Positions 1,666 through 19,753 of a stretch of DNA of 64,000 nucleotides are shown here, in pieces. Under the pieces are notes generated by a model. The model searched no databases. It was not told the DNA's origin and saw nothing but the letters and a program-made list of their open reading frames with translations. Both the position numbers and the translations under genes were made by a program. Position 1 is the stretch's first letter. Each line of letters starts with the position of its first letter. The DNA is taken from NCBI RefSeq assembly GCF_000633635.1, contig NZ_AYPQ01000009.1, positions 64,356 through 128,355 on the forward strand, read 5' to 3'. The stretch is from Enterococcus crotali. GTDB lineage: Bacteria > Bacillota > Bacilli > Lactobacillales > Enterococcaceae.

Positions 1666-1680
1666 GTCTTTTTTCTTTTT

Positions 1681-2307
1681 TTATGATTTCTCTTCTACAC
1701 TACCCACTAATATTTTACTACTTTTAGAAACATCCGTTGTCTTTTTCGTTCGATAGACACCGTCTTTCCTTAAATGATGATAGATTGTCGAGATAGAAAT
1801 ACCGCAACGTTTTGAGATTTCTTCTGTTGAAATGTCGGTATTGTGGTAGAGCTCAAGTGCTTCATTGACTTGATTAACAAGCGGTGGACGACCTAGAACA
1901 ACACCTTTTTTTTTGGCTGCGCTCAAACCTGCCAGTACACGCTCACGAATAAGTTCTGCCTCCATTTCAGCAAAAGCGCCCATGATCGTAAAAAAGAAGC
2001 GACCCATTGGTGTCGATGTATCGATATTATTTTCAATACTGACAAAATTGATATTTTGCTCGTTAAAGCGTTCTAATAAAACCAACAACTGTTTGGTTCC
2101 TCTAGCTAAGCGATCCAATTTAAAAATAACAAAGGTATCTCCTGGCTGCAAAATATTCAGTGCCTTATTCAGTTCATTGCGAAAACTTTTACGTCCACTT
2201 TCATATTCTTTGAAAATTTGATCAACACCGTAGTCTTCTAATGCTTGTTGCTGAGAATCAAATTTTTGATAATGTGTGCTGACACGCATATAACCAATAA
2301 CTGTCAT
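1681..2307 (-). CDS. Serine recombinase (resolvase/invertase family)
   Basis: This 208-residue small serine recombinase has the N-terminal catalytic domain (GYMRVSTHYQ with nucleophile Ser near residue 10, FKLDRLARG, GRFFFTIMGAFAEMEAELIRER) and a C-terminal Hin-type helix-turn-helix (ISTEEISKRCGISISTIYHHLRK, residues about 155-180). Such enzymes catalyse site-specific resolution or inversion. An AAGGGGGG site precedes ATG 2307. It is about two-thirds identical to the recombinase at 19754-20323, which points the other way. No Tn3-type transposase is nearby, so its target is unknown; it may act on the flanking island or be a remnant of a plasmid or transposon. Confidence 0.92.
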   Translation of the reverse strand: MTVIGYMRVSTHYQKFDSQQQALEDYGVDQIFKEYESGRKSFRNELNKALNILQPGDTFVIFKLDRLARGTKQLLVLLERFNEQNINFVSIENNIDTSTPMGRFFFTIMGAFAEMEAELIRERVLAGLSAAKKKGVVLGRPPLVNQVNEALELYHNTDISTEEISKRCGISISTIYHHLRKDGVYRTKKTTDVSKSSKILVGSVEEKS

Positions 2308-2364
2308 TCTATTTTCCCCCCTTAGAGTTCCTCCAAAACCTATGATCTACAGTCTACTTCTCTT

Positions 2365-4509
2365 TTACTCGGTGATATTCATCGGTTCAAAATAAATCGA
2401 ATGATAATAACCTTCTAGTGCTAATAACTCTTTATGCGTCCCTTCTTCAACGATCCTACCTTGATCCATTACTAAAATACGATCGAAGTGCTTGATCGTA
2501 TTTAAACGATGGGCCACAATGATACAAGTAAAGTCATAGGTCTTTAAACGATTCATAATGAAGTTTTCTGAAATATTGTCTAACGAGCTAGTCGGTTCAT
2601 CCATCAATAGTAGACTAGTTTCTTTGACCAATGCCCGGGCAATCGATATTCTCTGCATTTGTCCACCTGATAGATTCATCCCACCCTCTGAAATTTGCGT
2701 TTCTAGTCCTAAAGGTAAGTTCATAATGATTTCATCTACTCGTGAATCAAAAATCGCCTGTTCTATTCGTCCTTCCGGAGCTTCCGTTTGATTCAATACG
2801 ATATTTTCGTATAAAGAAGCATTAAAAATCGTCGGTTTTTGATTGACGATACTGATGCTACTTTTCAGTGAGGTATCATCGATTTGCTTTAAATCAACAT
2901 CATTGAATTTAATTTGCCCTGAAGTCGTGTCATATAAACCTGCTAGCAATTTCAGTAAGGTACTCTTGCCGGAGCCACTTTTACCAACGATAGCTACTTT
3001 ATCCCCGCGTTCAATTTGAAATGAAACAGAATGAAGGATCTCTTCTTCAAAGTAGCTGTATTTAAAGGAAACATCCTCAACTGTTACTGAATCAATTCCT
3101 GAGATTTGTTCTCCTTCGTTGACCAGTCGTGGATTATCTTTTGCTTCTAGAATTTCATTTAGCTTGCCAAAATAAGAACGTAATAATAAGAACTCTGTAT
3201 ATGAATCAAAAACTGTTACGATCGGTGCAATAAAAGCGCCTGACAAGGCATTAAAACTGATTAGTTCTCCCAATGTCACTTGGCCTTGCGTCACTTGAAA
3301 TAGCCCTACATAAATCAGCACAATCGGTAAAATAAATTGAATCGAGGTTTGAATCGTTCTGACCCACGTAGAAAATCGATTTTTCTCCGCTCGCAACATG
3401 ATTTGATTTTTGAATTCATTGCGCCATTTTGTGTAAAATTGTTGCTCAGAGCCAGAAGATTTAACGGTCTCCATTCCCTCAAACAATTCTACCAGAATGC
3501 GCTGAACCTTAGATTGAGCAATCAACTCTTTATTGGTAATGCTTTGCACTCGTTTGGAGTTGACTACTGAAATAGCGCCCATCATAAATGCCCCAAAAAT
3601 AGCAATCAGTGTTAATTTCAGCGACAAGTTGATCATTAAAATCAAATAGATAAACACAAATAGAAAATCTACTGAAATCGTCAGCATTCGTTGACTCATG
3701 ATTTGCTGAATGATCACACTTAAGTTCGCTCGAAAAATCAAATCTCCCGTTGAGCGATTCACAAAAAAGCGCAGCGGCAAATGAATGATCTTTTTCATGA
3801 AAGCCTTCATCAGCGTTAAATCAAACAAGTTTTCCAATACAATCAAAACTAGTCCTCTTGCAACCTGTAATAAATAATAGGCAATGAACAGAATCACGAT
3901 CGTTGACCCGATTTGAACGATATTCGTCACAGCAACAGTCGAATTATCAATGATTGTTTGCGTCAATCTAGGTATAGCAATTGTCACCATTTGAATCAAA
4001 AGAGTCAACGCAATAAATAGAGCGACCTTTGCTCGTTGATTCGTTAAAATTTCTTTTAGAATCGTCCAAGTGGCATTCTTTTTCTTCTTTCTTTGTGTGA
4101 TCGTGACATCAACGTCCGTTAAGATCAATGCAATATTTGAAAAACTAGCTTCAAATTCAGCTCTCTTTATTTTTTTCCTACCGCTCGCAGGATCAAGAAT
4201 AGTTGCCTCTTTAGCTGTTAGTTTTTCTAGAACGATATAATGACGCTCTTCCCAAAAACAAATCGTCGGTGTCGTCTGTTCCTCTAAGATATCTAATTCC
4301 AACACTCGAATCGCTTTGGTTTCAATGCCACGAACCATCAAGATTTGATTTAAGTTGGTCAGTGTATTACCGCCTTTAGGTACGCCATAGACATCGCGCA
4401 GGTGATTTAGCGTAACATTGTCATCATAATAGTTCAAAACCATCGTTGTACAAGCTAGTCCGCATTCACTATGCTCACTTTGTTCAGTGAATGGTACTTT
4501 TTTTGTCAA
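2365..4509 (-). CDS. lanT: LanT: peptidase-containing ABC transporter for lanthipeptide
   Basis: The 714-residue protein has three parts in the expected order. An N-terminal C39 peptidase domain carries Gln10, Cys16 (EQSEHSECGLACT), His in ERHYIVLEK and Asp in DPASG. Next comes a six-helix ABC exporter membrane domain (about residues 155-430). A nucleotide-binding domain follows with Walker A GKSGSGKST, signature LSGGQMQRIS and Walker B LLLMDEPTS. The peptidase would cut after the double-glycine-type leader of LanA while exporting the core. A TTG start at 4509 is supported by AAGGGGGG; the gene begins 12 bases after lanM, so the two are cotranscribed. All catalytic residues look intact. No separate leader peptidase or immunity transporter (LanFEG) is present. 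Confidence 0.95.
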   Translation of the reverse strand: MTKKVPFTEQSEHSECGLACTTMVLNYYDDNVTLNHLRDVYGVPKGGNTLTNLNQILMVRGIETKAIRVLELDILEEQTTPTICFWEERHYIVLEKLTAKEATILDPASGRKKIKRAEFEASFSNIALILTDVDVTITQRKKKKNATWTILKEILTNQRAKVALFIALTLLIQMVTIAIPRLTQTIIDNSTVAVTNIVQIGSTIVILFIAYYLLQVARGLVLIVLENLFDLTLMKAFMKKIIHLPLRFFVNRSTGDLIFRANLSVIIQQIMSQRMLTISVDFLFVFIYLILMINLSLKLTLIAIFGAFMMGAISVVNSKRVQSITNKELIAQSKVQRILVELFEGMETVKSSGSEQQFYTKWRNEFKNQIMLRAEKNRFSTWVRTIQTSIQFILPIVLIYVGLFQVTQGQVTLGELISFNALSGAFIAPIVTVFDSYTEFLLLRSYFGKLNEILEAKDNPRLVNEGEQISGIDSVTVEDVSFKYSYFEEEILHSVSFQIERGDKVAIVGKSGSGKSTLLKLLAGLYDTTSGQIKFNDVDLKQIDDTSLKSSISIVNQKPTIFNASLYENIVLNQTEAPEGRIEQAIFDSRVDEIIMNLPLGLETQISEGGMNLSGGQMQRISIARALVKETSLLLMDEPTSSLDNISENFIMNRLKTYDFTCIIVAHRLNTIKHFDRILVMDQGRIVEEGTHKELLALEGYYHSIYFEPMNITE

Positions 4510-4521
4510 TAGTATCCCCCC

Positions 4522-7500
4522 TTACTTCTTTGGTAGTGCTAACGTTAAGACATCTGCTGCTTGGTTAGCATCATGGATGCGGATAAGCTGGTGACCAATC
4601 CCAGACAATCCTGTAAACAAACCATATTTAGGTATCGTTGGCAGTCCTTCAAAGATATAGCTTCCTTCAGTAATCTTCTGATAGGCGTTTTGAACTTTTG
4701 TTTGAATCTGTTCTTTTTGTTGCCTGTTGGCTAATGTTGTTTTACCATATTCAATCAAGAATTCTAAATCACCAAAATTACCGTGACATAAGCAATCATC
4801 TCTTTTGTCCTGATCGATCAATCGTTGGGCGGCAATTTGAACTTCTTCTGCTAATCGTGGATCGTCAAATCCGCTATTTAGTAGATCCAAATAGGCCAAT
4901 CCAATCCCTGTAGAGCCATAACACCACAAATCATTCACCATTGGGATCATTGGACGAAGGTCTAGCCAACCATTTTGACTAGGATCGAACGTTGTTCTTT
5001 CTTTTACCAAACAGGTTTCAATCAGTTGTTTGATTTCAGGGTCTTTTTCAATTTTGAATAAACTGTTCGCTCCGTGAATCACACCTGAGTAACCATGTGC
5101 AAAACCGCCCTGAGTGATTTTTTCAAGATCTAAATCTAATAATAACTGTTTAGCAAAAGCCAAGTAATCCGCTTTATTCGTCAACTGATACAAATGGACA
5201 AACACTTTCACGATCGAAGCCGTCCCACCATTCCAATCATAGCTTTCAACAGACTCTTTCTCATAGCGTTCCATGTATTTTCCTGCAATGGATTCAGCTA
5301 CTGATAGTAACTTGGGATCATGATTATATTTATAGGTATATAGCAGTGGATAAACAGCCGCAAAGGAGCCATAAAATGCTGAAATACTGTCCACATAGTC
5401 GGCTTCTAGCTTCAATACTAGAGCTTGTGCCAACTCATAAGGCTCTTGGAATCGATCGTCCCCAGTAATATGATACAATTCACTGAAATACAAATACATT
5501 CCGGTGATACCGTCATAAAAATTTTCATTCATAACATTCACAACATAATTGTCCGGAGAAGTTTCTTCAATGTCCTTCCATGCAATCGAATCTTCACCAA
5601 TGAATGCAGCTTCAAGCACTGCTTCACCAACTGCTACAGCGCCGTCTAAGAAACTCACCTGTGGGATTTGCTCTTTTAACGGAATTACTTTTTCTTGTAG
5701 ATCCGTTGAGTGATACAAACCAAATGACGTTTTCAGATAGTCCAGCTGCTGTTCTTCTTCCTCTTTTGAAAAGTTCTTCAATCGCAGCACTTCAAGATCG
5801 ATCGCTGTTTCTTGATACATTCCGTTGATTATTTCACCTTGACTGGCCATCAAATCTTTTGTACTTGTCGGGTTAAAGAAGATCGGTACATCATGCTGCA
5901 GCATATCTCTTACTTCATAAGGTACTGGTTCTGAATTAGAATAGCCATGCATCCATAGATTCTCAAATAGTTTCTCCCGCTCGATATAATCGACCATACA
6001 GCTAGGATGTGTTGAGTAATCTAATAGATCGCCATAGCTTTGAGTTGTTTTTATTACGTTGCGGACTAGGCAATCTGAAAATGTCTTTTCCGCCAAAAAT
6101 GCCAATGTTTCTCTATTTTGCATAGCAAAAGCTGAAAATTCTTTAAAGCCTGCAATGATCGTGTCGATATATGGAACAAAATCAACCTTTTCTCCCTTGA
6201 ACATAGGAATATTTTCTGCTGCATCTGTAATGTGTTCTTGATATTTAAATTGCATGTTGATGGAATCAAAATTGATCAATTTCAACACTTTATAGGGTAA
6301 TTTCTGCTCGCCACCGCTAAGCGCACTCAGTTGAATTCCCTTTGTAGCTCCTTCAACATCCGCTTCTGCCCGTTCTTCAAACAAGTAAATAGGCACTAAA
6401 CCACTCATAACGACTGATTCACCATTTTCTTGGATCACCTTAACGATAGCATTTTCCCCATCTGGCATCGGGAAATGGTTTTGAATGATCGTCTCCAGAT
6501 CGATCAAAACAGGATATTTTCCAAAAGCCAGCACGTTTTCTAGGTGAAAATCATTGCCATTCAGTAAATAAACTAATGCGATTGTTTGGCCAAACTGACG
6601 ATAGTAGTGATTGACCTCTTCTTGTGATACACATTCAGAATAAATCAAGCATTCTTCAAACGTATACTTTTCTTTAACTATTTTTGTAGTCAAATAAAAA
6701 TCAACGTTTGGATTCATCTCATTGATTTCTTGAATAAATTGGTCAAAGCGTGCGCCAATCACTAGATTTTTCGGTTTAAATACGACATTCTTCTCATTGC
6801 TTAAGGTCAAAATTGCCACTGATTTACCTTTATCATGAGAATCCCCTGCCCCCATTTTTAAACCTGTTAAACAAATTGGCTTTTCTACTTGGAATACTTG
6901 ATTAAGCTCTGTTTCGCTTTCAGCAAGTGCGTGAAGCAACTCTCGAAAGTTCGCTAACTGAAAATCAACTGTTTCAGCATACAATCTAGTCAATACTGGA
7001 TATTGATCAAAAAATGCCAATAGCTTCTCTTGTGAATCAAAGCGTGTTATTAAATATTGACGAAAGCCTTCTTTTTCATCAAGTGATTCTGAGGATGGGA
7101 GCTTCTCTTTTTCTACATGCAAATCATAAACAAACGTCCGCAATCCAATATCCATAAAACGATTGATTACTTCGCCTAAATATTCTGTCATCGCTGTTGT
7201 CTGGACTATAATTGTTGGAAACTCCGCAATAATTTTCTCTAATTGTTTTTCTAAATAATCAATATGCAAACGTAAGGCATAGGTGAAATTCGCTTTGCTT
7301 TCATCAAAAACATCTGCGACTAAGAGATCTTCTTGTGATAAGATCAATTTCGTTGTTTTCATCCATTCTTCTTCGGAAATTGCTGTTACAATATATTCTT
7401 TTTCATCCGAAGTCAATTCTTTAATTGCTAAATCAAATCCTTCTTCTGTCAACTTTAATGAGTCCAAAATCTCTTTAAAGCGTTCATCCGTCACAGTTGT

Positions 7501-7635
7501 GGGACGTTTACGCCATTTTTTATAATTTTCAAGTTGATCATCAGCATAAGTTATACCGTTTTTGGAGTTATACTCTTTTAAAAGGTCATACCGTTGTCGG
7601 ATTGATGTAGCCTTCGCCAAATTTTTAAAACTCAT
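4522..7635 (-). CDS. lanM: LanM: class II lanthipeptide synthetase
   Basis: At 1037 residues this is a full-length bifunctional LanM. The N-terminal dehydratase domain contains GAGDSHDKGKS (about 262-272), FKPKN, NDFHLEN (361-367) and LIDLETI. It would phosphorylate and eliminate Ser/Thr of the precursor to dehydroalanine and dehydrobutyrine. The C-terminal LanC-like cyclase has repeated GxxG helices and the zinc ligands Cys905 (WCYG) and Cys950-His951 (LCHG), which activate Cys thiols for thioether ring closure. The substrate is presumably the peptide at 7745-7930, whose gene lies 109 bases upstream behind a hairpin. ATG 7635 follows AAAAGGAG. No change of key residues was seen. Confidence 0.96.
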   Translation of the reverse strand: MSFKNLAKATSIRQRYDLLKEYNSKNGITYADDQLENYKKWRKRPTTVTDERFKEILDSLKLTEEGFDLAIKELTSDEKEYIVTAISEEEWMKTTKLILSQEDLLVADVFDESKANFTYALRLHIDYLEKQLEKIIAEFPTIIVQTTAMTEYLGEVINRFMDIGLRTFVYDLHVEKEKLPSSESLDEKEGFRQYLITRFDSQEKLLAFFDQYPVLTRLYAETVDFQLANFRELLHALAESETELNQVFQVEKPICLTGLKMGAGDSHDKGKSVAILTLSNEKNVVFKPKNLVIGARFDQFIQEINEMNPNVDFYLTTKIVKEKYTFEECLIYSECVSQEEVNHYYRQFGQTIALVYLLNGNDFHLENVLAFGKYPVLIDLETIIQNHFPMPDGENAIVKVIQENGESVVMSGLVPIYLFEERAEADVEGATKGIQLSALSGGEQKLPYKVLKLINFDSINMQFKYQEHITDAAENIPMFKGEKVDFVPYIDTIIAGFKEFSAFAMQNRETLAFLAEKTFSDCLVRNVIKTTQSYGDLLDYSTHPSCMVDYIEREKLFENLWMHGYSNSEPVPYEVRDMLQHDVPIFFNPTSTKDLMASQGEIINGMYQETAIDLEVLRLKNFSKEEEEQQLDYLKTSFGLYHSTDLQEKVIPLKEQIPQVSFLDGAVAVGEAVLEAAFIGEDSIAWKDIEETSPDNYVVNVMNENFYDGITGMYLYFSELYHITGDDRFQEPYELAQALVLKLEADYVDSISAFYGSFAAVYPLLYTYKYNHDPKLLSVAESIAGKYMERYEKESVESYDWNGGTASIVKVFVHLYQLTNKADYLAFAKQLLLDLDLEKITQGGFAHGYSGVIHGANSLFKIEKDPEIKQLIETCLVKERTTFDPSQNGWLDLRPMIPMVNDLWCYGSTGIGLAYLDLLNSGFDDPRLAEEVQIAAQRLIDQDKRDDCLCHGNFGDLEFLIEYGKTTLANRQQKEQIQTKVQNAYQKITEGSYIFEGLPTIPKYGLFTGLSGIGHQLIRIHDANQAADVLTLALPKK

Positions 7636-7685
7636 GTCAATCTCCTTTTATACGTTTATTTATGTAAAATTTCTGTGATTAAAAA

Positions 7686-7733
7686 CAAGTGCTAGACAAG
7701 TTTCCTATCAAAAGGAACTCGTCTAGCAACTTG
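7686..7733 (-). terminator. Attenuator/terminator hairpin between lanA and lanM
   Basis: The arms CAAGTTGCTAGACGAGTTCCT and CAAGTGCTAGACAAGTTTCCT (as read from each end) pair over about 20 bases with few mismatches. On the minus strand the hairpin is followed by GTTTTTAATC. A partial terminator here would give more precursor than synthetase mRNA and could protect lanA mRNA ends; this role is inferred from other lanthipeptide operons. Confidence 0.72.
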
Positions 7734-7744
7734 CTTATTTTAGA

Positions 7745-7930
7745 TTACCATCCGCAACATCTTGAAGAGCAGCAGCTATAGCTACATCTTGTAGAGTAAC
7801 AGCTACTTGATGATGAAGATGAAGATGATGAAGACCAGCTCCAACCAAAGCTTCCTTGTACTTTATTCATTTCTTCTGGTGTTAATTCCTCAAAAGATTT
7901 CCCAACTTTTTGTTCAGCTTGTTTGTTCAT
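7745..7930 (-). CDS. lanA: Lanthipeptide precursor with polyserine core
   Basis: This 61-residue peptide has a class II leader, residues 1-27, with the acidic helix FEELTPEEMNKVQGS ending in a GS-type double-glycine cleavage site. The predicted 34-residue core begins FGWSW, continues with eleven consecutive serines (residues 33-43) and ends CYSTRCSYSCCSSRCCGW. The core holds 17 Ser, 1 Thr and 6 Cys (44, 49, 53, 54, 58, 59), and almost no other polar or charged residue except two Arg. The serine run uses TCT, TCA, AGT and AGC codons, so it is maintained as protein and is not a single-codon tract. AGGAGG lies 10 bases before ATG 7930. LanM and LanT follow. I do not recognise a known lantibiotic with this core. 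Confidence 0.93.
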   Translation of the reverse strand: MNKQAEQKVGKSFEELTPEEMNKVQGSFGWSWSSSSSSSSSSSCYSTRCSYSCCSSRCCGW

Positions 7931-8054
7931 AGTGTGTTTTCCTCCTAAATGATTTTTTACGACAATAAAATGTGCACTTTTATTCCCATTTATTTAAAAT
8001 AGATCGTTTATTAAACTCTCTATTTCAAAACATTTTTTTCCTCACTACAATAGC

Positions 8055-10813
8055 TTAGATTACTAATTTAATAATAGTGAATTTGTTTGCTTCGATTTTG
8101 AAGCTTGTTGGCTTAGTAGTCGTTCTACCTTTTTCAGCAGGTTCAATCGTATACTCTCCTGGTAATAAGTAGATACTGATTTGACCAAATGCATTAGTGA
8201 CAACAGTGGTCTCAAAAGCGGCACCTTTCGTACAAACGATATTGTATTCCAAGCCTTTTAGAACCTGTTTAGCATCATTACTTGAAAGGTAAACTAACGC
8301 ACGCCCCTGGTCTTGTTTTGGTTTATTATAAAAGACTGCTTCTGTAATTGTTTCTGCAACAATTGTTTTCGTTTGAACTGCTGCATCAATTTCATAGCCA
8401 TCCGGAGCTTTTGTTTCAGTGATCGTCACTTCACCAGCAGGTAAGCCTGGGAAGAATAATTCACCTTGAGTATCAGTGGTTCCTTTGTGAACATTACCTG
8501 CTGAATCCGTTACTTCAAATTCAGCGTTTGGCAAGACGTTAGTCGTTTCAAAACCATCTTCGTCTTTGGCGTATTTTGTGATTTTCAAACCGCCTAAGTT
8601 TTCTTTTTTAACATTCGCATGTCTAACTTCGGCTACTTTGCCTGATTCAACGGTTACTTCATAGAAAGTTGTATCTTGTTCATAGCCTGGCGGTGCTTCG
8701 ATTTCAATGACATAATACTTTCCTGGTTCTAGATCCGTTAAAAGAATTTCTCCATTACTGTCTGTCGTATACGTACCGATCAGGTTAGTATCACCGTCAT
8801 ATACCTCAAAAACTGCTCCTGGTAAATAGACGATTGGATCTGAATCCTTCACATATTTAATGACTTTTAATGAACCTGTCGCAGGCAACTCTATTTTTTT
8901 ATTGACTATTTCAATTGAAGCTTTGCCGTTTGGATCTGTCTTAGATAAGGTAATAAATCTTGGTGTTGTATCTAATTCATAGCCTTCTGGCGCTTTAGTT
9001 TCAATCAATTTATAGGTACCATATGGTAAATCTGTTAATTGACCGATACCATTTGCGTCTGTTGTGATCTTGCCAACTAGCTGATCATTTGAGTTATACA
9101 CATCAAATTCAGCGCCGGCCAAAAGCGTTCCAGCTTCGTCTTTTTTCACTACCTCGAGATCGCCAGTTGTTTTTTCTAGCTTATTCGTAATCGTTATACT
9201 AACCACACCGTTTGGATCATCTTTGGAAATAACGACCGTTTTTGGTGTTGCGTCTAATTCATAACCCTCTGGTGCTTTTGTTTCGATTAATTGATAGGTT
9301 CCACGAGGCAGATCTTTCAATGTAGCCATTCCGTTTTCATCGGTTGTAATGTTACCGACAACCTTGCCGTTGGCATCACGAACTTCAAACTCTGCTCCTG
9401 CTAAACGTTGTTTGCCTGATTCATCCTCTTTGATCACTTCAAGTGAACCCGTGGCAACTTTTTCTTTGTTCAATACTGTAATACTTACTTTTCCGTTTGG
9501 ATCTGTTTTAGATACTGTGACATATCTTGGGGTAGTATCTAGCTCATAGCCTTCTGGGGCTTTTGTTTCGATCAATTGGTAGGTGCCAAATGGTAGATTG
9601 CCCAATGTAGCAACTCCATTTGCATCTGTCGTAATTCTTCCAACTACAACTCCGTTGGCATTTCGAACTTCAAACTCTGCTCCTGCTAAGCGTTTGCCTG
9701 CTTCGTCTTGTTTGATCACTTCAAGTGCACCAGTCGTAACTTTTTTCTTGTTTAGTACTGTAATACTTACTTTTCCGTTTGGATCTGTTTTAGATACTGT
9801 GACATATCTTGGGGTAGTATCTAGCTCATAGCCTTCTGGGGCTTTTGTTTCGATCAATTGGTAGGTGCCAAATGGTAGATTGCCCAATGTAGCAACTCCA
9901 TTTGCATCTGTTGTAATTCTTCCAACAACAACTCCGTTGGCATTTCGAACTTCAAACTCTGCTCCTGCCAAGCGTTTGCCGGTTTCGTCTTGTTTAATGA
10001 CTTGCAATGCACCTGTGGTAATGACTTTTTTATTCAAGATGCTGATGCTTGTTATTCCATTAGGTGATGCAGAAGAAATAGTCACGTATCTTGGCGTTGT
10101 ATCCAATTGATGACCCGCTGGTGCTTGCACTTCGATCAGCATATATGTTCCGTATGGAAGTCCTGACAGAAAAGCTGTACCTGTGGCATCTGTTGTGATT
10201 CTTCCCACAAACTGATTATTTGAATTATAAACGTCAAAAACTGCTCCAGCCAACGCTTGATTATTTTCATTCGTTTTAATGACTTTCAATGTTCCTTTTG
10301 ATACAGTTGGCGGTAATTGTGTATTGCATTTAGTCAGACAAATGAATTGTCCAGAAAATGAAATGTTAAAGTACATTGCGCTTGTTTCTAATTGATAACC
10401 ATTTGGTGCCTTTGTTTCGCGAATTGAATAACTCCCTATTGGCAATGATCGGGTTTCAGCAATACCATTGTAATTAGTCTGGATCACTTGAACAACACGA
10501 TTGTATCTATCATAGATCGTAAATTGAGCACCAGATAATCGAGCATTTGTCCGTCCATCATATTTAATAACTTGAATGCCTCCGCATGACACAGGAGCAA
10601 AGAATCGGGGTGCTACGGTTGAACCAGTCGACAGTTTCTCTTGAACACCTGACAGATAATCATTTGTGAATAGATTTTCGGTCTGACCATTTCCCGACGC
10701 TGCTGTTGCCCACGATGTATTTTGGGCTGCTTCAGCCTGTTTTGTACCTATCGTACTGATTGCTAACAAAACCAAAATAAATGAAAAAATAAATAGCTAA
10801 TTTTTTGTTTCAT
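8055..10813 (-). CDS. Large secreted SpaA/Cna_B-domain protein (frameshift in signal peptide)
   Basis: About nine tandem SpaA/Cna_B-type beta-sandwich domains of roughly 94 residues follow one another. Most open with LxVIKxDExG..LAGAEFEV and contain GTYxLIETKAPEGYELD, where the Lys, Asn and Glu that form internal isopeptide bonds are expected. The open frame begins only at TTG 10775 (MVLLAISTIG). A far better start is ATG 10813, behind GAGGGAG (10823-10829). It would give MKQKISYLFF and a complete signal peptide if the A6 run at 10784-10789 had one more base. The C-terminus (FTIIKLVI) lacks a sorting motif; the LPATG near 8880 is internal and has no membrane segment after it. Cys residues in the first and last domains are unusual for this family. 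Role: probably an extracellular stalk or adhesin. It lies 124 bases upstream of lanA on the same strand. Confidence 0.85.
9471..9987 (-). repeat. Near-identical 282-bp tandem repeats in the SpaA-like gene
   Basis: The segments 9471-9705 and 9753-9987 are almost identical with a period of 282 bp (94 residues, one domain). The neighbouring domains are related but diverged. This indicates recent duplication or gene conversion of one domain and makes the gene prone to copy-number change and assembly collapse. Confidence 0.85.
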
Positions 10814-11069
10814 ACAATAAAACTCCCTCAACAATTTTTGATTTTTAACTTCTAACGAATAATTTTAGTAAGTAATAAACCAGATAAATAATTCAATCAT
10901 ATTGCTCACTCCTCTCTCTATTTAAAAAGAAATTCCAAAAAATAAAAATAAATTTAAAAATTGTTTTATTTTGCACTAGTTATTTAATGTTTTTGCTATA
11001 ATAACATATGTACCATAAAGTTTTTCACAAGGTAAAGTATTTTATACCGATGGAGAGGGGAACTATAAT

Positions 11070-11945
11070 TTGAAAGATTATGGAACGTTAATAAAAAAAA
11101 TACGACTAGAAAAAGGCCTTAGCCAAAAAGACATCTATAACGGTATTATGACTAGGCAAACTTATTATTTAATCGAAACAAATGTCAGCATGCCGTCTTT
11201 TGATAAATTTTTGATGATACTGGAAAAGCTGTTTATTTCAGTGGATGAATTTCTTTATTTGCTTGATCCAGAAATGTGTCCAACAGAAATGCAGCTATAC
11301 CGTCAGCTAAGTCAAGCTGTCTTTAAAAAGGATCAGAACATGCTTGATTCGCTTGCTGAAAAGTCTCAACATTTTTATTCCTTGACCAATAAGCAACAGT
11401 ATTTCCACCTAAATTTAATCACTCAAGCGATGTCCTATTTGAACAAAGAACCCGTAGAAGCTGAGGCGACCAATTTTTTGAATGAACTGATGCAGCCGAT
11501 CAAACAATATCTGATTGGTATCGACAAATGGTATCTTTATGAATTAAAACTGTTAAACAATTCCTTATATTGTTTTGAGCTTTCAGAGGCGATTGCGTTG
11601 GGAATTCTGGTCGGCAAAAAAATCGATGTCCTCAGTCATTTAGAACAATATCAAGATATTAAGCTTAGAATCTATTTAAACCTTTCTAGCTTATGTCTTA
11701 ATTGTCAAGATTATGAGAACACCTTACTATTTTCGACTCTGGCTAAAGAAAATGCTCAAAATAATTACCGGTTGTTTGAAACGATTATTGCAAAACTAAA
11801 CTATGAGATTGCTCAAACGGCGAATCTAAAACAGTCAGAGAACCTTCAAATCAATCATTATCTGACTATTTTAGAAAATTTAGATTATAAAGCCACTGTA
11901 CTTGAGTACAAAAAAATCTTACGTTCGAACGCCATTTATTATTAA
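11070..11945 (+). CDS. Rgg/MutR-like transcriptional regulator
   Basis: The 291-residue protein has an N-terminal helix-turn-helix of XRE type (YGTLIKKIRLEKGLSQKDI, then QTYYLIETNVSMPSFDKF; residues 1-60) followed by an all-helical C-terminal domain like that of Rgg/GadR/MutR regulators, which often sense exported peptides. The start is TTG at 11070 behind GGAGAGGGG; an ATG in frame is lacking near this site. It is transcribed divergently from the SpaA-like gene and is the only regulator near the lanthipeptide genes, so control of spaA-lanA-lanM-lanT is plausible but unproven. A TATAAT lies at 10997-11002. No short peptide gene typical of Rgg-SHP pairs was seen. Confidence 0.8.
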   Translation: MKDYGTLIKKIRLEKGLSQKDIYNGIMTRQTYYLIETNVSMPSFDKFLMILEKLFISVDEFLYLLDPEMCPTEMQLYRQLSQAVFKKDQNMLDSLAEKSQHFYSLTNKQQYFHLNLITQAMSYLNKEPVEAEATNFLNELMQPIKQYLIGIDKWYLYELKLLNNSLYCFELSEAIALGILVGKKIDVLSHLEQYQDIKLRIYLNLSSLCLNCQDYENTLLFSTLAKENAQNNYRLFETIIAKLNYEIAQTANLKQSENLQINHYLTILENLDYKATVLEYKKILRSNAIYY

Positions 11946-11974
11946 TTTATTTGTTTTTTTTAGAAATCCAATTA

Positions 11975-14203
11975 TTATCCGAACTTATTTACTTTGTAAT
12001 CCCAACTATAGGGTCTCGGTGACTCACCATTACTATCTTCCCCAAAATTAGGTGTAATAAACATCGTTACCCAATATTCATTATCTGTTTGATAATCTAA
12101 TACAGCTTGATTGTTTTTTATCAATGCAGCTGTATTACTGGATAAATGGATCGTATTTAGATTTTCGTTTGTTTTCGTAGCAATATAACCGAAAAATGTA
12201 TAATATTCAGGAACTAAATCAGTTATTTTTAGCAGCTTCTGATCCTTGTTTAATGTTATTTCATATTTAGTAAAAAGCGTTTGTGAGACTTCAGGTGCGG
12301 TATCCTTTGTAGTACTTTCAGAAATCAAGTTGATGGACTGTTGTGTCTCATCGATCGTCGAATGGTAAAAGCCTTTTGATGGAACAACTAGTTCAGAATT
12401 TGGCTTGAGTACGCTTTGACGAATATTTAACAAAACGGTCTTCGTTTTGGGATTTTGCTTATTCGTCACAATGATCTGCTGATGTGCGTGATCTTTAGTA
12501 GCCAGTGCAAATTTGAATGTAGCTTTGGAATTTTTTGTTTCTAGTCCGTTGATATCGATCGTTGTTTCATAATCTTGATTCGCTTTTAAGAGCTCTTCTA
12601 CAAAATAATCTTGATCCGCTTTCCATGGATGAACGATTTTCTTAATGTCATTTGAATAGAGTGAAAATCGATCATTTGTAGTGTATGAATCGTTTCCATA
12701 CTTAAAGTCAAACATTTCTGTTCGATCATTTATTTCTTCACCTTTTTCATTCAGTAACTTTTTTTGTAAACTAACAATGATCGGTTTGACAAATGGTACA
12801 TCAAACGTACGGTCTCTTATAGTATCACTATAATCTTTATACTTAATTGTTGCTTCCTCATTCGTTGCTGCTAGCCCGTCTTCGCCTATAACATCTGGCT
12901 TCAAGACATCATTTCCAGCGTTCACCCGATATTTGATTTCTGCAAACATGACATCTTCATCAGGATCACTAGAAACTGGTGTTTTAAGTGTTCCAACTTC
13001 CCAATAGATCGTTTGACGACCAGCTACCTCCTTAATCTCAGTTATCCCTTGAGTAGCAGAGATTCCACCGTCCATTTCAAAGCCGTCTCCCATTGAGTCA
13101 ACAACAGAGGCAGTTTTTATTGCTCCGACGATTTCTCCAGCAATTCCACTTAGAATATCCTCTAAATTATCAGCCGTTGCAGCAAAACTTTTATCCTCAG
13201 AAGTAGCCATTTCTTTCATCGTCTGATTTCCTGTAACCACTTCATCATCTTGTGAGGTTGAGTCCATATCTACACCGATCGTATAAAAATCGGTCACAAC
13301 CAATTCGCCATCTGCTCTCTTTTCATTTTTTGAAATCGTTGCTTCGGCTATTGCACTATGTGCATGGTTAGCCATCAAGCGATTTTTGGAATCTTGTGGT
13401 TGTTCATATTCAGGAGCGAATGCACCAATTCGGTATCTCGCACCATTTCCATATCTTTTGCTATAGTCAAAATTTTCTTTTGGAATGGTCTTAACAGTTT
13501 CATAATAGTCATAGCCATTTTGTAGATAGTCAAATTTTTCCATGCCAGCCAGCTGATTATATGGTGCTGTTGGTGGATAACTATAGGTGGGCACGCCATC
13601 AGATATCAATACAATATTTCTTTTTTTACCTGTTGCTTTTGCCATCACTTCAGTCGCTGATTTGATTCCAGCCTGTGTATAGGTTCCTCCATTTACCACG
13701 GGTTCCAATTCTTTGATTTTATCGATCAACAATCCTTTATGAGCTGGATCAACAAATTGGCCACTCCAACCAGCTTCATTAAAGGTATAATTCGTTACTT
13801 CACTACTGTATGTAACAAGTGCGATTCTATTTTCGTAATCTTTTCTTAAGACCATATTCACAAATTTTTCAGCAGCCGTTTTGGCTTTGATCATTCGGTC
13901 ATTATCTTTCATACTTCCAGAAGTATCAACAATCAGTACAATATCTGTTGCCGGCGGCGGAAATTGATTGCGGCCTTCAATACGTAACGTGATATCCCAT
14001 TGATTGACCATTCCTGCTACAGGTTCTGCTATTTTGCTTATACCAACTTTCCCTGGTGCTAATTCGGTTTTTTTGGCCGCCTTCACTGGAGCGTTTGTAT
14101 CCACTAAGAAAGATTGAGCTGTATAGACGAAACCAATCAAACAAAAAATAGCTATCAGCCCTTTAATCCATTTCAGTTGCCTGTTTTTCTTTCTCTTAAA
14201 CAC
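11975..14203 (-). CDS. von Willebrand factor A domain surface protein
   Basis: The 742-residue protein has a positively charged N-terminus and one hydrophobic segment (residues 14-34) as signal peptide or anchor. A vWA domain runs from about 85 to 360 with an intact metal-ion-dependent adhesion site: Asp93-Thr-Ser95-Gly-Ser97, a Thr in GGTYTQAG and Asp in LISDGVPT. The rest looks like beta-rich pilin-type domains (for example the TYEITLNKDQ region). There is no LPxTG signal or C-terminal membrane helix. It is the last gene of the SipW operon, 32 bases behind a SipW-type substrate. By analogy with pilus tip adhesins it may be the binding component of a surface fibre; that is inference. Confidence 0.82.
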   Translation of the reverse strand: MFKRKKNRQLKWIKGLIAIFCLIGFVYTAQSFLVDTNAPVKAAKKTELAPGKVGISKIAEPVAGMVNQWDITLRIEGRNQFPPPATDIVLIVDTSGSMKDNDRMIKAKTAAEKFVNMVLRKDYENRIALVTYSSEVTNYTFNEAGWSGQFVDPAHKGLLIDKIKELEPVVNGGTYTQAGIKSATEVMAKATGKKRNIVLISDGVPTYSYPPTAPYNQLAGMEKFDYLQNGYDYYETVKTIPKENFDYSKRYGNGARYRIGAFAPEYEQPQDSKNRLMANHAHSAIAEATISKNEKRADGELVVTDFYTIGVDMDSTSQDDEVVTGNQTMKEMATSEDKSFAATADNLEDILSGIAGEIVGAIKTASVVDSMGDGFEMDGGISATQGITEIKEVAGRQTIYWEVGTLKTPVSSDPDEDVMFAEIKYRVNAGNDVLKPDVIGEDGLAATNEEATIKYKDYSDTIRDRTFDVPFVKPIIVSLQKKLLNEKGEEINDRTEMFDFKYGNDSYTTNDRFSLYSNDIKKIVHPWKADQDYFVEELLKANQDYETTIDINGLETKNSKATFKFALATKDHAHQQIIVTNKQNPKTKTVLLNIRQSVLKPNSELVVPSKGFYHSTIDETQQSINLISESTTKDTAPEVSQTLFTKYEITLNKDQKLLKITDLVPEYYTFFGYIATKTNENLNTIHLSSNTAALIKNNQAVLDYQTDNEYWVTMFITPNFGEDSNGESPRPYSWDYKVNKFG

Positions 14204-14235: not shown

Positions 14236-14895
14236 CTACTCATCCACTGTTTGATTTTTTAACGTATTATCCACTTCCAGTTGAGGATTCTCAGTCGGTA
14301 TTTTTCCGCCCCACCAAGCATCTCTATATGCAAATTTGGTTGTGTTGATACCTTCTGCTTTCACTTCAAAGGATAACGTAGCACCTTGATATTCTTCTGT
14401 GATGTTCGCTTGATTCATTTTTACATTAGTAAATAAGTTTGCAGTGCTGGCTCCTTTGACCAACTTATATTTGTAATAAAAATAGCCATCCTTACCATCG
14501 ATCCAATCTTTTAGGTTATAATCAACACTTAGTACTGGCTGTGGACCATTTACCGTTGCCGGCAATAATGTAATTGCTCCATTTGGCTGTTTTTTGGTCA
14601 AGATAGGTAAGGCTAACACTCGGATAAAACTTGCCTGTTCTCCCGTATTTTTGATCGTTACTTTTTTTAAATAGTCTTTCTCAGGCTCCAGCACTGTTGG
14701 CGGGTCAAATTCCTCTTCGATAGTGTTTTGAAGATTACCAACTCTGAATTCGTTCTGCTTTTGATCAGAATCGGTCAAAGCAGCGTAAGTTTGATACAAG
14801 CCAAATGAAAGACTGAATAGCATTACCAAAAAGCCCGTAAGTAAGCACCATTGTTTTATGCTTAAATACTTCTTTACCTTCCGCTTTTTTTTCAC
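14236..14895 (-). CDS. SipW-dependent matrix-type protein 3
   Basis: The 219-residue protein has a very basic N-terminus (MKKKRKVKKY), a hydrophobic segment and the sequence GLYQTYAALTDSDQKQNEFRVGN. This resembles the special signal peptide class cut by SipW-like peptidases. The mature part opens with EEEFDPPTVLEPEKDYLKKVTIKNTGEQASFIRVLALP, a block shared with the proteins at 15711 and 17437, and contains GKDGYFYYKYKL. Such BsaA/TasA-related proteins form biofilm-matrix fibres in other Firmicutes. It is the most diverged of the three and lacks the AWF motif at the cleavage region. Function in fibres is inferred from family and neighbours. Confidence 0.78.
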   Translation of the reverse strand: MKKKRKVKKYLSIKQWCLLTGFLVMLFSLSFGLYQTYAALTDSDQKQNEFRVGNLQNTIEEEFDPPTVLEPEKDYLKKVTIKNTGEQASFIRVLALPILTKKQPNGAITLLPATVNGPQPVLSVDYNLKDWIDGKDGYFYYKYKLVKGASTANLFTNVKMNQANITEEYQGATLSFEVKAEGINTTKFAYRDAWWGGKIPTENPQLEVDNTLKNQTVDE

Positions 14896-14966
14896 GATCC
14901 ATCCACTCCCTATACTGACGTAATTAACTATGTGCGAAACATCAAAATCCCTTATGCTCCTACTTC

Positions 14967-15632
14967 TTACTTAAGCAATTCTTCTGGTATATTCAACCGA
15001 TAACCTTTTGAGCGAACAGTTTTGATAATATCCGCATATTCATCATCAACCATTTGTATTTTTTTACGTATATGGAAAACTAAATTTGCGACACGATATT
15101 TTGGTGCAATCTCTTCTTTATCCCATAAATATTCAGCGATTTCCTCATAAGTACGAACCTTGTTGTTGGATGTATACAAACAATCCAACAATGCATATTC
15201 CAATTTAGTCAGAATGATTTTTTTACGCCCAAACCGCACAGTTAAACTTGACGAATCTAGATAAAAACCTTGTTCTTTTTCTATTGTCATGCAACGTATG
15301 CCATTCTTGATAGTCATCGCAATCTCATCAAAAGAATCTGATGCTAATAAAAAGCCAGTAACTCCTAATTTCAAATAGACAATTTTTTCTTCACCTAATG
15401 GTTCATCCATCAAAATCCAAATCGGTTTTGATGGCATTTCTTGAAGTTTTATCAGCCATTGAAATAATTTTTCTATCCGAACATGCTCATTTTTTTGAAG
15501 CAAGATACCTTGTATGGAGGCTAGATCCGTATTTTCTAAGTCATAAATCTGAATATCAAAATCAGTAAAAAGTCGTTCTAGTTCATTTTCTTGTATCGTT
15601 TGTTTATCCGAAAGCATCCCTAGCGCGTACAT
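14967..15632 (-). CDS. Atypical OmpR-type response regulator of the matrix operon
   Basis: The C-terminal half (residues 130-221) is a clear winged-helix DNA-binding domain: LTKLEYALLDCLYTS, RTYEEIAEYLWD, VANLVFHIRKKI and TVRSKGYRLNIP. The N-terminal half has receiver-like length, but the acidic pair is missing and the phosphorylation site region reads IWILMDEP without a clear acceptor. Phosphorylation-independent control is therefore likely. No histidine kinase is nearby. The gene lies between two matrix-protein genes. Its closest relative in the window is the regulator at 60808-61524 beside the WxL cluster; both share the KxVYLxLGxxG block. It probably controls this operon. Confidence 0.8.
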   Translation of the reverse strand: MYALGMLSDKQTIQENELERLFTDFDIQIYDLENTDLASIQGILLQKNEHVRIEKLFQWLIKLQEMPSKPIWILMDEPLGEEKIVYLKLGVTGFLLASDSFDEIAMTIKNGIRCMTIEKEQGFYLDSSSLTVRFGRKKIILTKLEYALLDCLYTSNNKVRTYEEIAEYLWDKEEIAPKYRVANLVFHIRKKIQMVDDEYADIIKTVRSKGYRLNIPEELLK

Positions 15633-15710
15633 ATCTTTTCACATCCTTTTGATTTTTCCATCTACTCTTACAAGTCATTCAGTTCAGTGTATAGTTTCAA
15701 ATTACTTTCT

Positions 15711-16583
15711 TTAATCACTTAAGCGATCATGGTACATGTCATATATCTCTCCAGAATTGCCAATATTCCACGTGCTTAAAAGTCCTTTCGTTGCATCATG
15801 GGCATCCATCAGAGGATTTAATTGATATAGCGCACCTTTAAACTTATTTGGTGCATTCGAACTCAATCGTACGCTTTTCAACACCAATGCACTGACTTCA
15901 CTAGGTTGAAGCAACTCAGAATAATAAAAATATCCGTCTTTATATAACCAGTAATCTTTTGTTCCTTTTACTGGCGCAGTAGTATAAACATTATCTGGAA
16001 AGTTCAACTGAAACCAACGGAGCTCCGTTTTGTCTCTGCCACTGTCTTTAAATTTATACATTTCTGTTCCTGTGAGTACATTAGGAACAATTGCTTTTTC
16101 TGCAATAACATGTTTACCCTCGCGTAAATAAGTCCCACCGGCGTCAGCTGCTGCTTGCCATGATCCTGTGTCTTTTGGATCAACCGTTGGTAATACTTCT
16201 TTTGAAGAGGTTGCTAAGTTACCATTGCCTGTTTGATCAGTGGTATCTATTTTGAATGTTAATAAATACTCATATAAGCTGATACGGACGAATGCAGGAA
16301 GATTACCAGTGTTCTTAACTTGAATCACTTTTTTTGTATCCACTCCGGGTTGCCATTCAAACTCTGGTTCAAATTCCTCTACGATTTCAGCTGCTAGCCT
16401 TGAACCTACAAAATGATTGACTTCACTGTCTTCAGAAACAAACCATGCGTATGTACTTCCTAGAACCATCAAACCAGAAAAGAGAAATGTGCAGACAGCG
16501 ACAATCAATTTAGTGTTTACTTTTACAGTTTTCTTGTTTCTTTGTTGTCGTTTTTTTCTTCGAAGTTGCTTTTTTTTCTTCAT
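15711..16583 (-). CDS. SipW-dependent matrix-type protein 2
   Basis: The frame is open from 16625, but AGGGGG lies about nine bases before ATG 16583, which gives MKKKKQLRRKKRQQRN, a 290-residue product. The basic tail is followed by a hydrophobic helix and GSTYAWFVSEDSEVNHFVG, the SipW-class cleavage region, closely matching TFAWFTSEDEKNNHFEG in the 17437 protein. The mature domain starts VEEFEPEFEWQPGVDTKKVIQVKNTGNLPAFVRISL and has YKDGYFYYSELLQPSE near the C-terminus, as in the BsaA family of matrix proteins. It is exported and probably assembled outside the cell. There is no wall-sorting signal. Confidence 0.83.
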   Translation of the reverse strand: MKKKKQLRRKKRQQRNKKTVKVNTKLIVAVCTFLFSGLMVLGSTYAWFVSEDSEVNHFVGSRLAAEIVEEFEPEFEWQPGVDTKKVIQVKNTGNLPAFVRISLYEYLLTFKIDTTDQTGNGNLATSSKEVLPTVDPKDTGSWQAAADAGGTYLREGKHVIAEKAIVPNVLTGTEMYKFKDSGRDKTELRWFQLNFPDNVYTTAPVKGTKDYWLYKDGYFYYSELLQPSEVSALVLKSVRLSSNAPNKFKGALYQLNPLMDAHDATKGLLSTWNIGNSGEIYDMYHDRLSD

Positions 16584-16640
16584 GCTGTGCTGCCCCCTGT
16601 CATTTGATCGTTCTAAAAAATTCAATTGACGTTATCATCA

Positions 16641-17402
16641 TTAGTCGTTTTTTCTCTTTGGTCTATGTTGTTTTTCTTGCTTTTTATATTTAAGTATTAA
16701 TAAAGAAACTAAAACCAAGAACAAACCGATACATGAAAACAGCAATGCATTGCGCCATTCTTCTCCTGTTTTTGGAAATTTTAATTTATCTGTTATGCTT
16801 TCTAAAAAAGGTTTTTTGGGTTGATCTGGCCCCTGTGTATCAGGGAGTGTTGTTTTGACTGCCTTGAATGACCAACTATTTTCCATGATATTCTTTTCAA
16901 AAAAATCTCTGTTGGTATATTTTTTTCCGTCTAATTCAAAATCTGCTTCTAGCGTTTTCGTATCACCGCTTTTAAATGTACCTAAATCTAACGGTGTTGC
17001 TTTATCTTGTAAATTCAATGTTTGACTGACACCAGAGACTGGGCCTTGATAGACTTTTTTGCCGTCATACCTCAATGTCATTTCAATAGCTTGAGCTAAG
17101 TCCAAAGTTCCTCTAATAAGTGTAGGCTTGCTGACACTCATCGTTAAATGATAAGGGATATCTTTTTCAAGATTGATGATCGTGATTTTGGTGGACCATT
17201 TTTTCCCTGGTTCCACATCACGAATATCCACTAGGTATTGTCCGTCGCTTTGTATTTTAATCCCTTGATCATCACCAGCTACTATTCCAGGAGGAAGATT
17301 TGTTTCAGAATTTACTTCAACAGGTTTAATTACGAGTGATAAACTGACCAATAAAAATAGTCCCATCAGAAACCACCCTGTCATCCTGTGTTTTCTTTGC
17401 AT
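16641..17402 (-). CDS. FPKTG-type sortase-anchored surface protein
   Basis: The 253-residue protein has a signal peptide (residues 1-32), a beta-rich middle part and a complete C-terminal wall-sorting signal: FPKTG (209-213), a hydrophobic helix (LLFSCIGLFLVLVSLLIL) and a basic tail. A sortase would join it to peptidoglycan or to another subunit; FPxTG variants are typical of class C or pilin-type sortases, and no sortase gene is in the window. It lies between two SipW-dependent matrix genes, 35 bases behind the first. It may be the base that fixes the fibre to the wall. The middle domain was not recognised. Confidence 0.82.
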   Translation of the reverse strand: MQRKHRMTGWFLMGLFLLVSLSLVIKPVEVNSETNLPPGIVAGDDQGIKIQSDGQYLVDIRDVEPGKKWSTKITIINLEKDIPYHLTMSVSKPTLIRGTLDLAQAIEMTLRYDGKKVYQGPVSGVSQTLNLQDKATPLDLGTFKSGDTKTLEADFELDGKKYTNRDFFEKNIMENSWSFKAVKTTLPDTQGPDQPKKPFLESITDKLKFPKTGEEWRNALLFSCIGLFLVLVSLLILKYKKQEKQHRPKRKND

Positions 17403-17436
17403 TTTTCTTCCTCCTCAAATAGTTAACGGTTTTTGA

Positions 17437-18474
17437 TTATTTAGCAGGTACTAATGCTTTCAAAGCGTCTGCTAAAGTTCCACCTGCTGGTAACCAATCA
17501 TCTACAGCATCTTTATATGCTGCAATTCCTTGACCTTTAACGGTTAAATCATAGATCAATTTACTGTATTCATTGCCTGCTGTTCCTAGTAATTTAACTG
17601 CATCCATCAATTGTGCTGTATTCACACCAGGATCTACTACGCTTGTATAGTAGAAATAACCGTCAGCAGAGTTGAAATACCATTTATCAGCAACTGTTGG
17701 ATCTGTTGTAATATTGTTGAATGAAATTTGAATATTGCCTGTTCCTGTTGCTGCTGGCGCATTCCAAATCAATGTGCCATCTGGTGTAAATGTCGGTGCA
17801 TAAACTGGGTTGGTCCATTCTTTTTCATCAGCTGGTTGATATGCTAGTGATACATAGCTAAGTGCTGGTGTACCAGATTTTAGGCTGATTTGATTTGCTG
17901 CATTGCGAGTGAAGCCATCTATACCGCTTGCATGGTATAATACGCCGTCTTTTTCAAATGCGTAACGATACGTATACGTTGTTTTTGTGCCAACTGTTTC
18001 AGATTTTTCTTTCACTTTTAATGTGTAAGTTCCTTTAAAATCGCCTGCTGTAATCTCGATTTTCGGCGCAGCTCCATCAAATGTAGAAGCTGTGAAACCT
18101 GCTGGAGCATCTGTTCCTGGTAATACATAAACATCATCAGCTGTTTTACCTTCAAGCTCAGCACCAGTTGTTGGTTTTGCTTGATGATCTTGTAAAAGTT
18201 GTAATGATTCTTTTAAAGATACACGAATCAATGTTTTGTATTTACCAATATTGGCAATTGCTACATCTTTGTTTACTTCTGACCCTGGATCCCATTCGGT
18301 CGGTGGTTCAAATGTTTCCACTACTTCAATATCTTTTCCTGTTGCGATTTGCCCTTCAAAGTGGTTATTTTTTTCGTCTTCACTGGTAAACCAGGCAAAT
18401 GTTGCTGCTAATACGGCAACCAGTGCAAAACCACTTGCTAAAGCAAGGACTTTTTTCTTTCTGTTTTTATTCAT
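17437..18474 (-). CDS. SipW-dependent matrix-type protein 1
   Basis: This 345-residue protein has the clearest SipW-class signal peptide of the three: MNKNRKKKVLALASGFALV..ATFAWFTSEDEKNNHFEG. The mature domain begins VVETFEPPTEWDPGSEVNKDVAIANIGKYKTLIRVSL, contains an Ala/Gly/Thr-rich insert and ends with a segment containing SADGYFYYTSVVDPG. The DGYFYY motif recurs in all three paralogues. The RBS (GGGAGGAAATTGAGAA region) fits ATG 18474. It is the first structural gene behind the signal peptidase, the place of the major fibre subunit in sipW-tasA operons. Amyloid-like assembly is possible but not shown by sequence. Confidence 0.85.
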   Translation of the reverse strand: MNKNRKKKVLALASGFALVAVLAATFAWFTSEDEKNNHFEGQIATGKDIEVVETFEPPTEWDPGSEVNKDVAIANIGKYKTLIRVSLKESLQLLQDHQAKPTTGAELEGKTADDVYVLPGTDAPAGFTASTFDGAAPKIEITAGDFKGTYTLKVKEKSETVGTKTTYTYRYAFEKDGVLYHASGIDGFTRNAANQISLKSGTPALSYVSLAYQPADEKEWTNPVYAPTFTPDGTLIWNAPAATGTGNIQISFNNITTDPTVADKWYFNSADGYFYYTSVVDPGVNTAQLMDAVKLLGTAGNEYSKLIYDLTVKGQGIAAYKDAVDDWLPAGGTLADALKALVPAK

Positions 18475-19582: not shown

Positions 19583-19753
19583 TAGTATTCTAATAATATT
19601 TTTTACTACTTGTATCTTTCATCTTCAAAGGCGGTGGTTGCAACAATTTTATCGATTTTATTTGGCTATAGAAAATGCTGAATGATGAAGCAACAGTTTA
19701 TTTTTCGCCTGAAATATGGCAATTATCAATTATTTAGAGGTAGGTGTTCATTA

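Follow-up and report, generated by a model that had tools for sequence, protein, structure and literature searches.

A predicted class II lanthipeptide with a long serine run, encoded in a fiber-gene island of Enterococcus

The lan genes and the island around them

We analyze a 64,000-nucleotide stretch of Enterococcus crotali DNA (hereafter, the window) in which a small gene, lanA, lies on the minus strand together with genes for a lanthionine synthetase (lanM) and an ABC exporter (lanT). The three genes sit in an island of ~19 kb (window 1549-20667) that has two serine recombinases at its ends and was absent from the original prediction. The features are as follows, with counts referring to the 17 Enterococcus genomes that carry the locus or to the 16 other than our own:

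1681..2307, minus strand: serine recombinase adjoining lanT (Pfam; 17 of 17 loci)
2365..4509, minus strand: lanT, ABC exporter with N-terminal C39 peptidase (Pfam, invariant catalytic residues)
4522..7635, minus strand: lanM, class II lanthionine synthetase, 1037 aa (NCBIfam, Pfam, CylM alignment)
7683..7736, minus strand: strong stem-loop followed by a T run in the lanA-lanM gap, attenuator-like (-30.5 kcal/mol, z -7.0)
7745..7930, minus strand: lanA, predicted class II lanthipeptide precursor, 61 aa (open reading frame; Pfam PF16934 leader match)
7748..7810, minus strand: predicted ring knob, residues 41-61, with S41-C44, S46-C49, S50-C53, S55-C58, and S56-C59 (-3 rule)
7802..7834, minus strand: poly-Ser run, residues 33-43, comprising the arm (33-40) and S41 as predicted first ring Ser (homologue alignment)
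7850..7930, minus strand: leader, residues 1-27, ending in QGS (alignment of homologues)
7993..8029, minus strand: A+T-rich stem-loop in the SpaA-lanA spacer (weak; z -2.15 computed on the whole 124 nt)
8055..10775, minus strand: surface protein with SpaA/CnaB repeats, encoded immediately upstream of lanA (Pfam SpaA E 2.3e-173; 17 of 17 loci)
11070..11945, plus strand: Rgg/MutR-type regulator, divergent (14 of 17 loci)
11975..14203, minus strand: VWA-domain surface protein (17 of 17 loci)
within 14236..18474, minus strand: three BsaA-type matrix proteins, at 14236, 15711, and 17437 (NCBIfam TIGR04090)
within 14236..18474, minus strand: winged-helix regulator, at 14967 (4 of 16 other loci)
within 14236..18474, minus strand: LPXTG-like anchored protein, at 16641 (16 of 16 other loci)
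18564..19307, minus strand: SipW-type signal peptidase (TIGR02228; 16 of 16 other loci)
19682..20323, plus strand: second serine recombinase, at the opposite island end (16 of 16 other loci)

The lanA reading frame has the position, strand, and length (61 residues) that were originally predicted, and it starts with an ATG behind an AGGAGG-type ribosome site. The count of 17 Ser, 1 Thr, and 6 Cys in the 34-residue core after QGS also held. The Pfam Mersacidin model (PF16934) matches residues 9-27, in the leader only, with an E value of 1.2e-7 and leaves the core unmatched. LanA scores below the cut-offs of the NCBIfam lichenicidin A2 (26.1 bits; cut-off 32.95) and plantaricin C (19.4 bits; cut-off 29) families. 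LanT would be expected to cut after the GS of the leader, giving a core with the aromatic N terminus FGWSW. A class II system is marked by a double-glycine-type leader, a core with Ser/Thr and Cys, and, encoded beside the precursor, a bifunctional LanM whose dehydratase and cyclase residues are intact. All of these are seen here, and the lanA product is almost certainly a class II lanthipeptide. It does not appear to be half of a two-peptide system, as each LanM-orthologue locus (6-15 kb) contained one open reading frame with the leader motif and no second precursor. A wrong-strand reading of 7745..7930 is ruled out by the conserved leader, the ribosome site, and the synonymous pattern described below.

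The claim of a lanthipeptide precursor with an adjacent LanM was borne out by the leader model, which matches 17 of 17 lanA homologues, by the NCBIfam LanM model (698.5 bits; cut-off 304), and by the catalytic residues. When LanM is aligned with the CylM structure 5dzt (E 2.3e-117), 13 positions are invariant in all 17 genomes, namely the equivalents of CylM D252, H254, K274, D347, H349, N352, D364, E366, R506, and T512 and of the zinc Cys/Cys/His. The roles that we assign to E366 and the zinc ligands are presumed ones. For nine of these positions, roles are named in the available part of PMC4550811. LanT likewise keeps its C39 residues Cys16, His90, and Asp106 in 17 of 17 genomes. Identity among LanM orthologues falls to 57%, and LanM is at most 29.3% identical to its plasmid matches (best 30 of 185).

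The three lan genes are closely packed. Gaps of 10-18 nt between lanM and lanT and of -4 to 62 nt between lanT and the recombinase leave no room for immunity genes (LanFEG/LanI) between the lan genes at any of the 17 loci; in this, the locus departs from a classical lantibiotic cluster. A stem is predicted between lanA and lanM in 17 of 17 genomes. The strong stem-loop of the window would fit a lanA transcript more abundant than that of lanM, but a consensus terminator scan did not report it. In the SpaA-lanA interval, we found no promoter-like site on the lanA strand, and no known RNA element of Rfam reached its gathering score in window positions 1-22000. A palindromic motif around GTGCAC (~7960-7990), seen by eye in this spacer at 12 of 17 loci and missing in three divergent ones, is a possible operator.

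All 17 loci share the gene order VWA, SpaA, lanA, lanM, lanT, serine recombinase (lanA was grouped by the ORF caller at 15 of them and recovered by a motif search at all 17), and the three BsaA-type genes, the anchored protein, the SipW-type peptidase, and the second recombinase are present in all 16 other genomes. Against the TIGR04090 cut-off of 60, the proteins at 15711 and 17437 score 82.2 and 94.5 bits, and that at 14236 scores 45.3, below the cut-off. The peptidase scores 73.3 bits with TIGR02228 (cut-off 51.85) and 50.9, below the cut-off of 190, with the SipW model. Pfam gave no match for the proteins at 14236, 15711, 16641, and 17437 or for the peptidase. A SipW-type peptidase together with BsaA-family proteins is the signature of a SipW/BsaA-type matrix fiber locus; filament formation would follow from the family name and from the available text of PMC7395162.

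Outside the island lie a GH18/LPMO pair on one side (LPMO in 16 of 17 loci, GH18 in 13) and a small membrane-protein gene (20667) on the other. As one genome (G012) has neither LPMO nor GH18 at its flank, its island may lie elsewhere. Five Enterococcus genomes lack the lan genes. GH18 was found in three of them, the other two giving no match, and in all three it directly adjoins a homologue of the 20667 protein (EmrE-like by eye), so the whole island is missing there. Of the 105 family genomes, 17 have the VWA protein, and these are precisely the 17 with lanA; across the phylum, the protein was found in 4 of 398 genomes, our own and three with weak partial matches. For the SpaA protein, family genomes gave the same 17 plus three others with weak matches of 37-43%.

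The fiber block can, however, exist without the peptide. A paralogous block (G018:C34) has SipW, BsaA-type, VWA, Rgg, SpaA, and recombinase genes and no lan genes, which is the strongest result against an obligatory lan role in the fiber. This shows that the fiber block is a unit of its own, which has either gained or lost lanAMT. Pairwise identities of LanM correlate with those of VWA and of SpaA (r 0.967 each). As the recombinase identities correlate as well (r 0.90; correlations were computed for island genes), the linkage could be passive inheritance from one old insertion.

Just outside the two recombinases lies a 95-nt inverted repeat pair (1579-1673 and 20434-20528). An invertible, phase-variable cassette nevertheless finds no support: this repeat is a dispersed one, with 43 matches across the genome, and in all 16 loci with that flank it is the lanT end that faces LPMO.

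In 17 of 17 genomes, the SpaA protein has a Cys in its first CnaB domain; an AlphaFold model of the first two domains (mean pLDDT 85.7, pTM 0.49) places this Cys in the last strand of the first. In the window, the SpaA signal-peptide region (10740-10810) is out of frame relative to its relatives, among which copies starting with a signal peptide exist, and the reading frame starts at an internal TTG; an assembly error or slippage is possible. Elsewhere in the genome, a 2167-aa protein (G000:C7:90000-104000, 329-6829) has an end 43% like residues 587-742 of the island VWA protein, perhaps a common assembly or anchoring domain.

Distribution and conservation of the precursor

LanM orthologues (at least 60% identity) and the precursor occur in the same 17 of 22 Enterococcus genomes, our own included. 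At an E value of 0.001, the precursor was not found in the other 88 of 105 family genomes, of which 5 are Enterococcus and 83 belong to other genera. In a sample of the order, it was found in 16 of 395 genomes, all Enterococcus. The eight named records reached through LanM (E. quebecensis, E. sp. DIV0212c, E. termitis, E. caccae, E. rivorum, E. ureasiticus, E. larvae, and E. plantarum) all have it; they overlap the 17 genomes and add no cases. Spread of lanA by plasmid or phage was considered and rejected: plasmids gave no precursor match in a search weakened by the low-complexity filter, and viral contigs gave none with two peptide patterns.

Among the matches listed in the open-licence literature, no title or abstract opening described a poly-Ser core in a lanthipeptide or a lanthipeptide encoded in a fiber island, and the available parts of the lanthipeptide surveys PMC7268733 and PMC11251773 contain nothing on a poly-Ser peptide. 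The E. caccae peptide of PMC9576775, a candidate for an already characterized version, is thiazole-type according to the accessible portion of that paper. We propose that lanA represents a new class II lanthipeptide family, here limited to one group of Enterococcus, as part of an overall explanation whose chances we regard as even.

Two weaker leader matches were seen. An orphan precursor (G010:C4, 7415-7639) has a similar leader and another core, with the LanM matches of that genome on other contigs; it is possibly a second substrate of the island LanM. The other match lies in the E. caccae genome, in a second class II cluster (G001:C4, 3528-11351). The LanM of that cluster is 39% identical, its exporter is C39-type, and its five precursors, which fall into two kinds, have cores that differ from the poly-Ser family. 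Our own genome has a second LanM-like gene, split into two reading frames (G000:C7:64000-76000, 5055-7948).

Precursors are 81-98% identical to the LanA of the window, and 16 of 17 have retained 7-14 Ser without interruption. The run of the window uses TCT, TCA, AGT, and AGC codons and is preceded by W32, so the Trp said to flank it is present on the N side; on the C side stands Cys44. In the 16 genomes, the stretch from Trp to Cys44 has 10-15 residues, exclusively Ser, Thr, Arg, or Asn, with Arg and Asn confined to the last two positions (42/43) and a single Thr at the start of the run in G012. The exception is one species (G004) that lacks the run and has two extra Cys instead, one there and one at the first residue of the core. 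As G004 dropped the run yet retained the knob, the arm is not indispensable.

Codon usage points to selection on the run. Without the last three positions, the 16 genomes have 85 TCA, 43 TCT, 7 TCG, and 1 ACA codons (135 Ser, one Thr). In the 56 genome pairs with runs of equal length, 143 codon differences are synonymous and none is non-synonymous; in all pairs without G004, the figures are 320 and 15, the latter all arising from comparisons of the lone Thr codon of G012 with 15 partner genomes. The corresponding figures for all pairs of the 17 genomes are 995 to 236 in the leader and 554 to 214 in the tail. On the LanM tree, we count at least 18 codon changes in the first eight run positions, all synonymous. 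At a one-third expectation, the chance of 18 out of 18 is 2.6e-9, a value that ignores tract slippage, which could mimic some of the changes, and that comes from just 11 genomes picked for their 11-codon run. Because codon changes in the run are synonymous (with one Ser/Thr exception), unlike those in the leader and tail, serine itself, beyond length or hydrophilicity, appears to be kept. The original view that the run is selected is thus supported, with G004 as the case in which it was lost.

An exact search for nine consecutive TCN codons, which covers TCN and not AGY serines, found two places in the 3.9-Mb genome (three matches, two overlapping), the second being the antisense strand of an acidic stretch in another gene. 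The run exceeds chance, in that relatives show it again together with this leader and tail (17 precursors, 16 with the run).

The tail had been described as three CC pairs; two of these are present (C53-C54 and C58-C59), and C44 and C49 are single. Five Cys are invariant in all 17 precursors (44, 49, 53, 58, and 59), and each of the five has an invariant Ser/Thr at exactly -3 (41, 46, 50, 55, and 56), i.e., an SxxC motif. No other offset from -1 to -8 exceeds 2 of 5 Cys, where C44 was evaluated to -6 and the gap of G004 decides -4 to -6. In permutations that keep the Cys in place and shuffle the remaining columns, reaching 5 of 5 at whichever offset between 2 and 6 has a p value of 0.0018 (the -3 rule was spotted before this test). 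C54 is Tyr or Phe in 5 of 17 genomes and has Tyr51 at its -3, and the Cys peculiar to one genome (G004 has two of them, G019 has one) have no Ser/Thr at -3 within the core. S41 is Ser even in G004, and the ring-interior positions 42/43 accept Arg, Asn, or Cys.

Because of the invariant -3 Ser/Thr at all five invariant Cys, we consider it likely that the tail forms five SxxC lanthionine rings. Those of S55-C58 and S56-C59 would overlap, for which the available text of PMC13060208 gives a precedent in the overlapping C-terminal rings of TlaA peptides. The earlier suggestion that CC pairs mark overlapping rings or disulfides can be refined: the -3 rule predicts overlapping rings at S55/S56-C58/C59 only, and C54 of the other pair is replaceable.

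Possible functions of the peptide

From sequence and gene context, our best explanation is that the peptide is a lanthipeptide component of a cell-surface or biofilm-matrix fiber and not a classical lantibiotic. We give this explanation as a whole as much credence as doubt, and find it rather probable that the function of the peptide is tied to the fiber. LanM would bind the conserved leader, phosphorylate and then eliminate Ser/Thr, and form, within the C-terminal 21 residues, the five SxxC lanthionine rings, of which the last two would overlap; LanT would cut after GS and export the peptide. The Ser arm between FGWSW and the knob would be kept for its hydroxyl or dehydrated chemistry and would most likely be at least partly dehydroalanine (Dha), and the product would act extracellularly with the BsaA/VWA/SpaA fiber of the same island. 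Contiguous dehydro residues adopt an extended 2.05-helix (PMC10880069, available part), so a dehydrated arm would be a stiff, extended spacer. Whether five or more contiguous positions of the arm are dehydrated, we judge to be evenly balanced.

Alternatively, the run may stay unmodified and serve as a soluble, flexible linker from the aromatic N terminus to the ringed knob. Its variable length and its loss in G004 would suit a linker, and LanM enzymes can skip Ser/Thr, e.g., Ser3 of TlaA1 (PMC13060208, in the portion available). A linker would, however, tolerate Gly, Asn, Gln, Pro, or Ala, whereas before its last three positions the run has 135 Ser codons and a single Thr codon across the 16 genomes, and substitutions with Arg, Asn, or Cys do occur at the ring-interior positions 42/43. 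We regard the linker as a serious possibility, though a somewhat doubtful one.

More generally, the lan genes could encode a conventional class II lantibiotic whose knob binds an envelope target in competitors, with the island as mere neighborhood and with immunity encoded elsewhere or provided via the exporter. The Mersacidin-type leader, LanM, and LanT would all be expected of such a peptide, other LanM genes are common in the genus, and some lantibiotic clusters have no nearby immunity genes. We nonetheless consider a lantibiotic unlikely and favor a matrix product, because none of the 17 loci has an immunity gene between the lan genes, each has a single precursor and is linked to fiber genes, and the precursors remain 81-98% identical while LanM diverges down to 57%, unlike bacteriocin cores, which change fast.

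An extreme version of the matrix reading, in which the arm is wholly dehydrated (at least 8 contiguous Dha) and becomes a rigid, reactive electrophilic spike bonding with thiols or amines on secreted fiber proteins, strikes us as quite improbable; the Cys in the first CnaB domain of SpaA would be one candidate partner. If true, a lanthipeptide would cross-link or cap the fiber of a bacterial matrix covalently. It is very unlikely that the product is a secreted signal sensed by the divergent Rgg or the winged-helix regulator of the island: Rgg stands beside SpaA in 14 of 17 loci, but it is missing from three lan-bearing loci and present in the lan-less paralogous block, and Rgg proteins usually sense short linear peptides. 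Least probable of all is an acidic, ion-binding arm phosphorylated by LanM without full elimination, given that all 17 genomes retain the elimination residues (equivalents of D252, H254, R506, and T512), even though LanM dehydration runs via phosphate esters (PMC4550811) and phosphorylated lantibiotics are reported (PMC13219514), both according to the parts of these papers available.

For the matrix-component reading, the genetic linkage to a SipW/BsaA-type matrix-fiber island in 17 genomes suggests a structural or matrix role for a member of a class usually filed under antibiotics. The run also offers a natural test, conserved across species, of a single LanM's ability to dehydrate many equivalent serines in a row, and it bears on whether long poly-dehydroalanine exists in ribosomal peptides. 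Natural controls are at hand in G004 without the run, the fiber block of G018:C34 without lan genes, and species without the island.

Comparison with known systems

One close likeness is to mersacidin, lichenicidin, and cytolysin (LanM structures CylM 5dzt and LicM2 6st5), with which the system shares the leader, the LanM architecture and catalytic residues, and a C39-type LanT. It differs from them in a core unmatched by models, a single precursor, the poly-Ser arm, and the lack of immunity genes between the lan genes. SapB and SapT are morphogenetic lanthipeptides that are not antibiotics and, like the peptide in the reading proposed here, are used at the surface and not for killing; SapB differs in being class III and from Streptomyces.

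Contiguous dehydroalanines number five in solanimycin, up to four in thiopeptides, and three in lichenicidin beta according to the available text of PMC10204066, which calls such runs rare and whose authors knew of none above five. The likeness is in neighboring Ser-derived Dha, if the arm is dehydrated. The LanA of the window offers a longer series of adjacent candidate positions (8 ahead of S41) in a ribosomal, LanM-made peptide, and if more than five contiguous Dha are made, they would surpass those known to the authors of that text.

The island resembles the sipW-bsaABCRSD matrix operon of Clostridium perfringens (PMC7395162, in the part available) in SipW, BsaA-family proteins, and further secreted proteins. 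No lanthipeptide gene is named in that part and the regulators differ, whereas the Enterococcus island has VWA and SpaA proteins and two recombinases.
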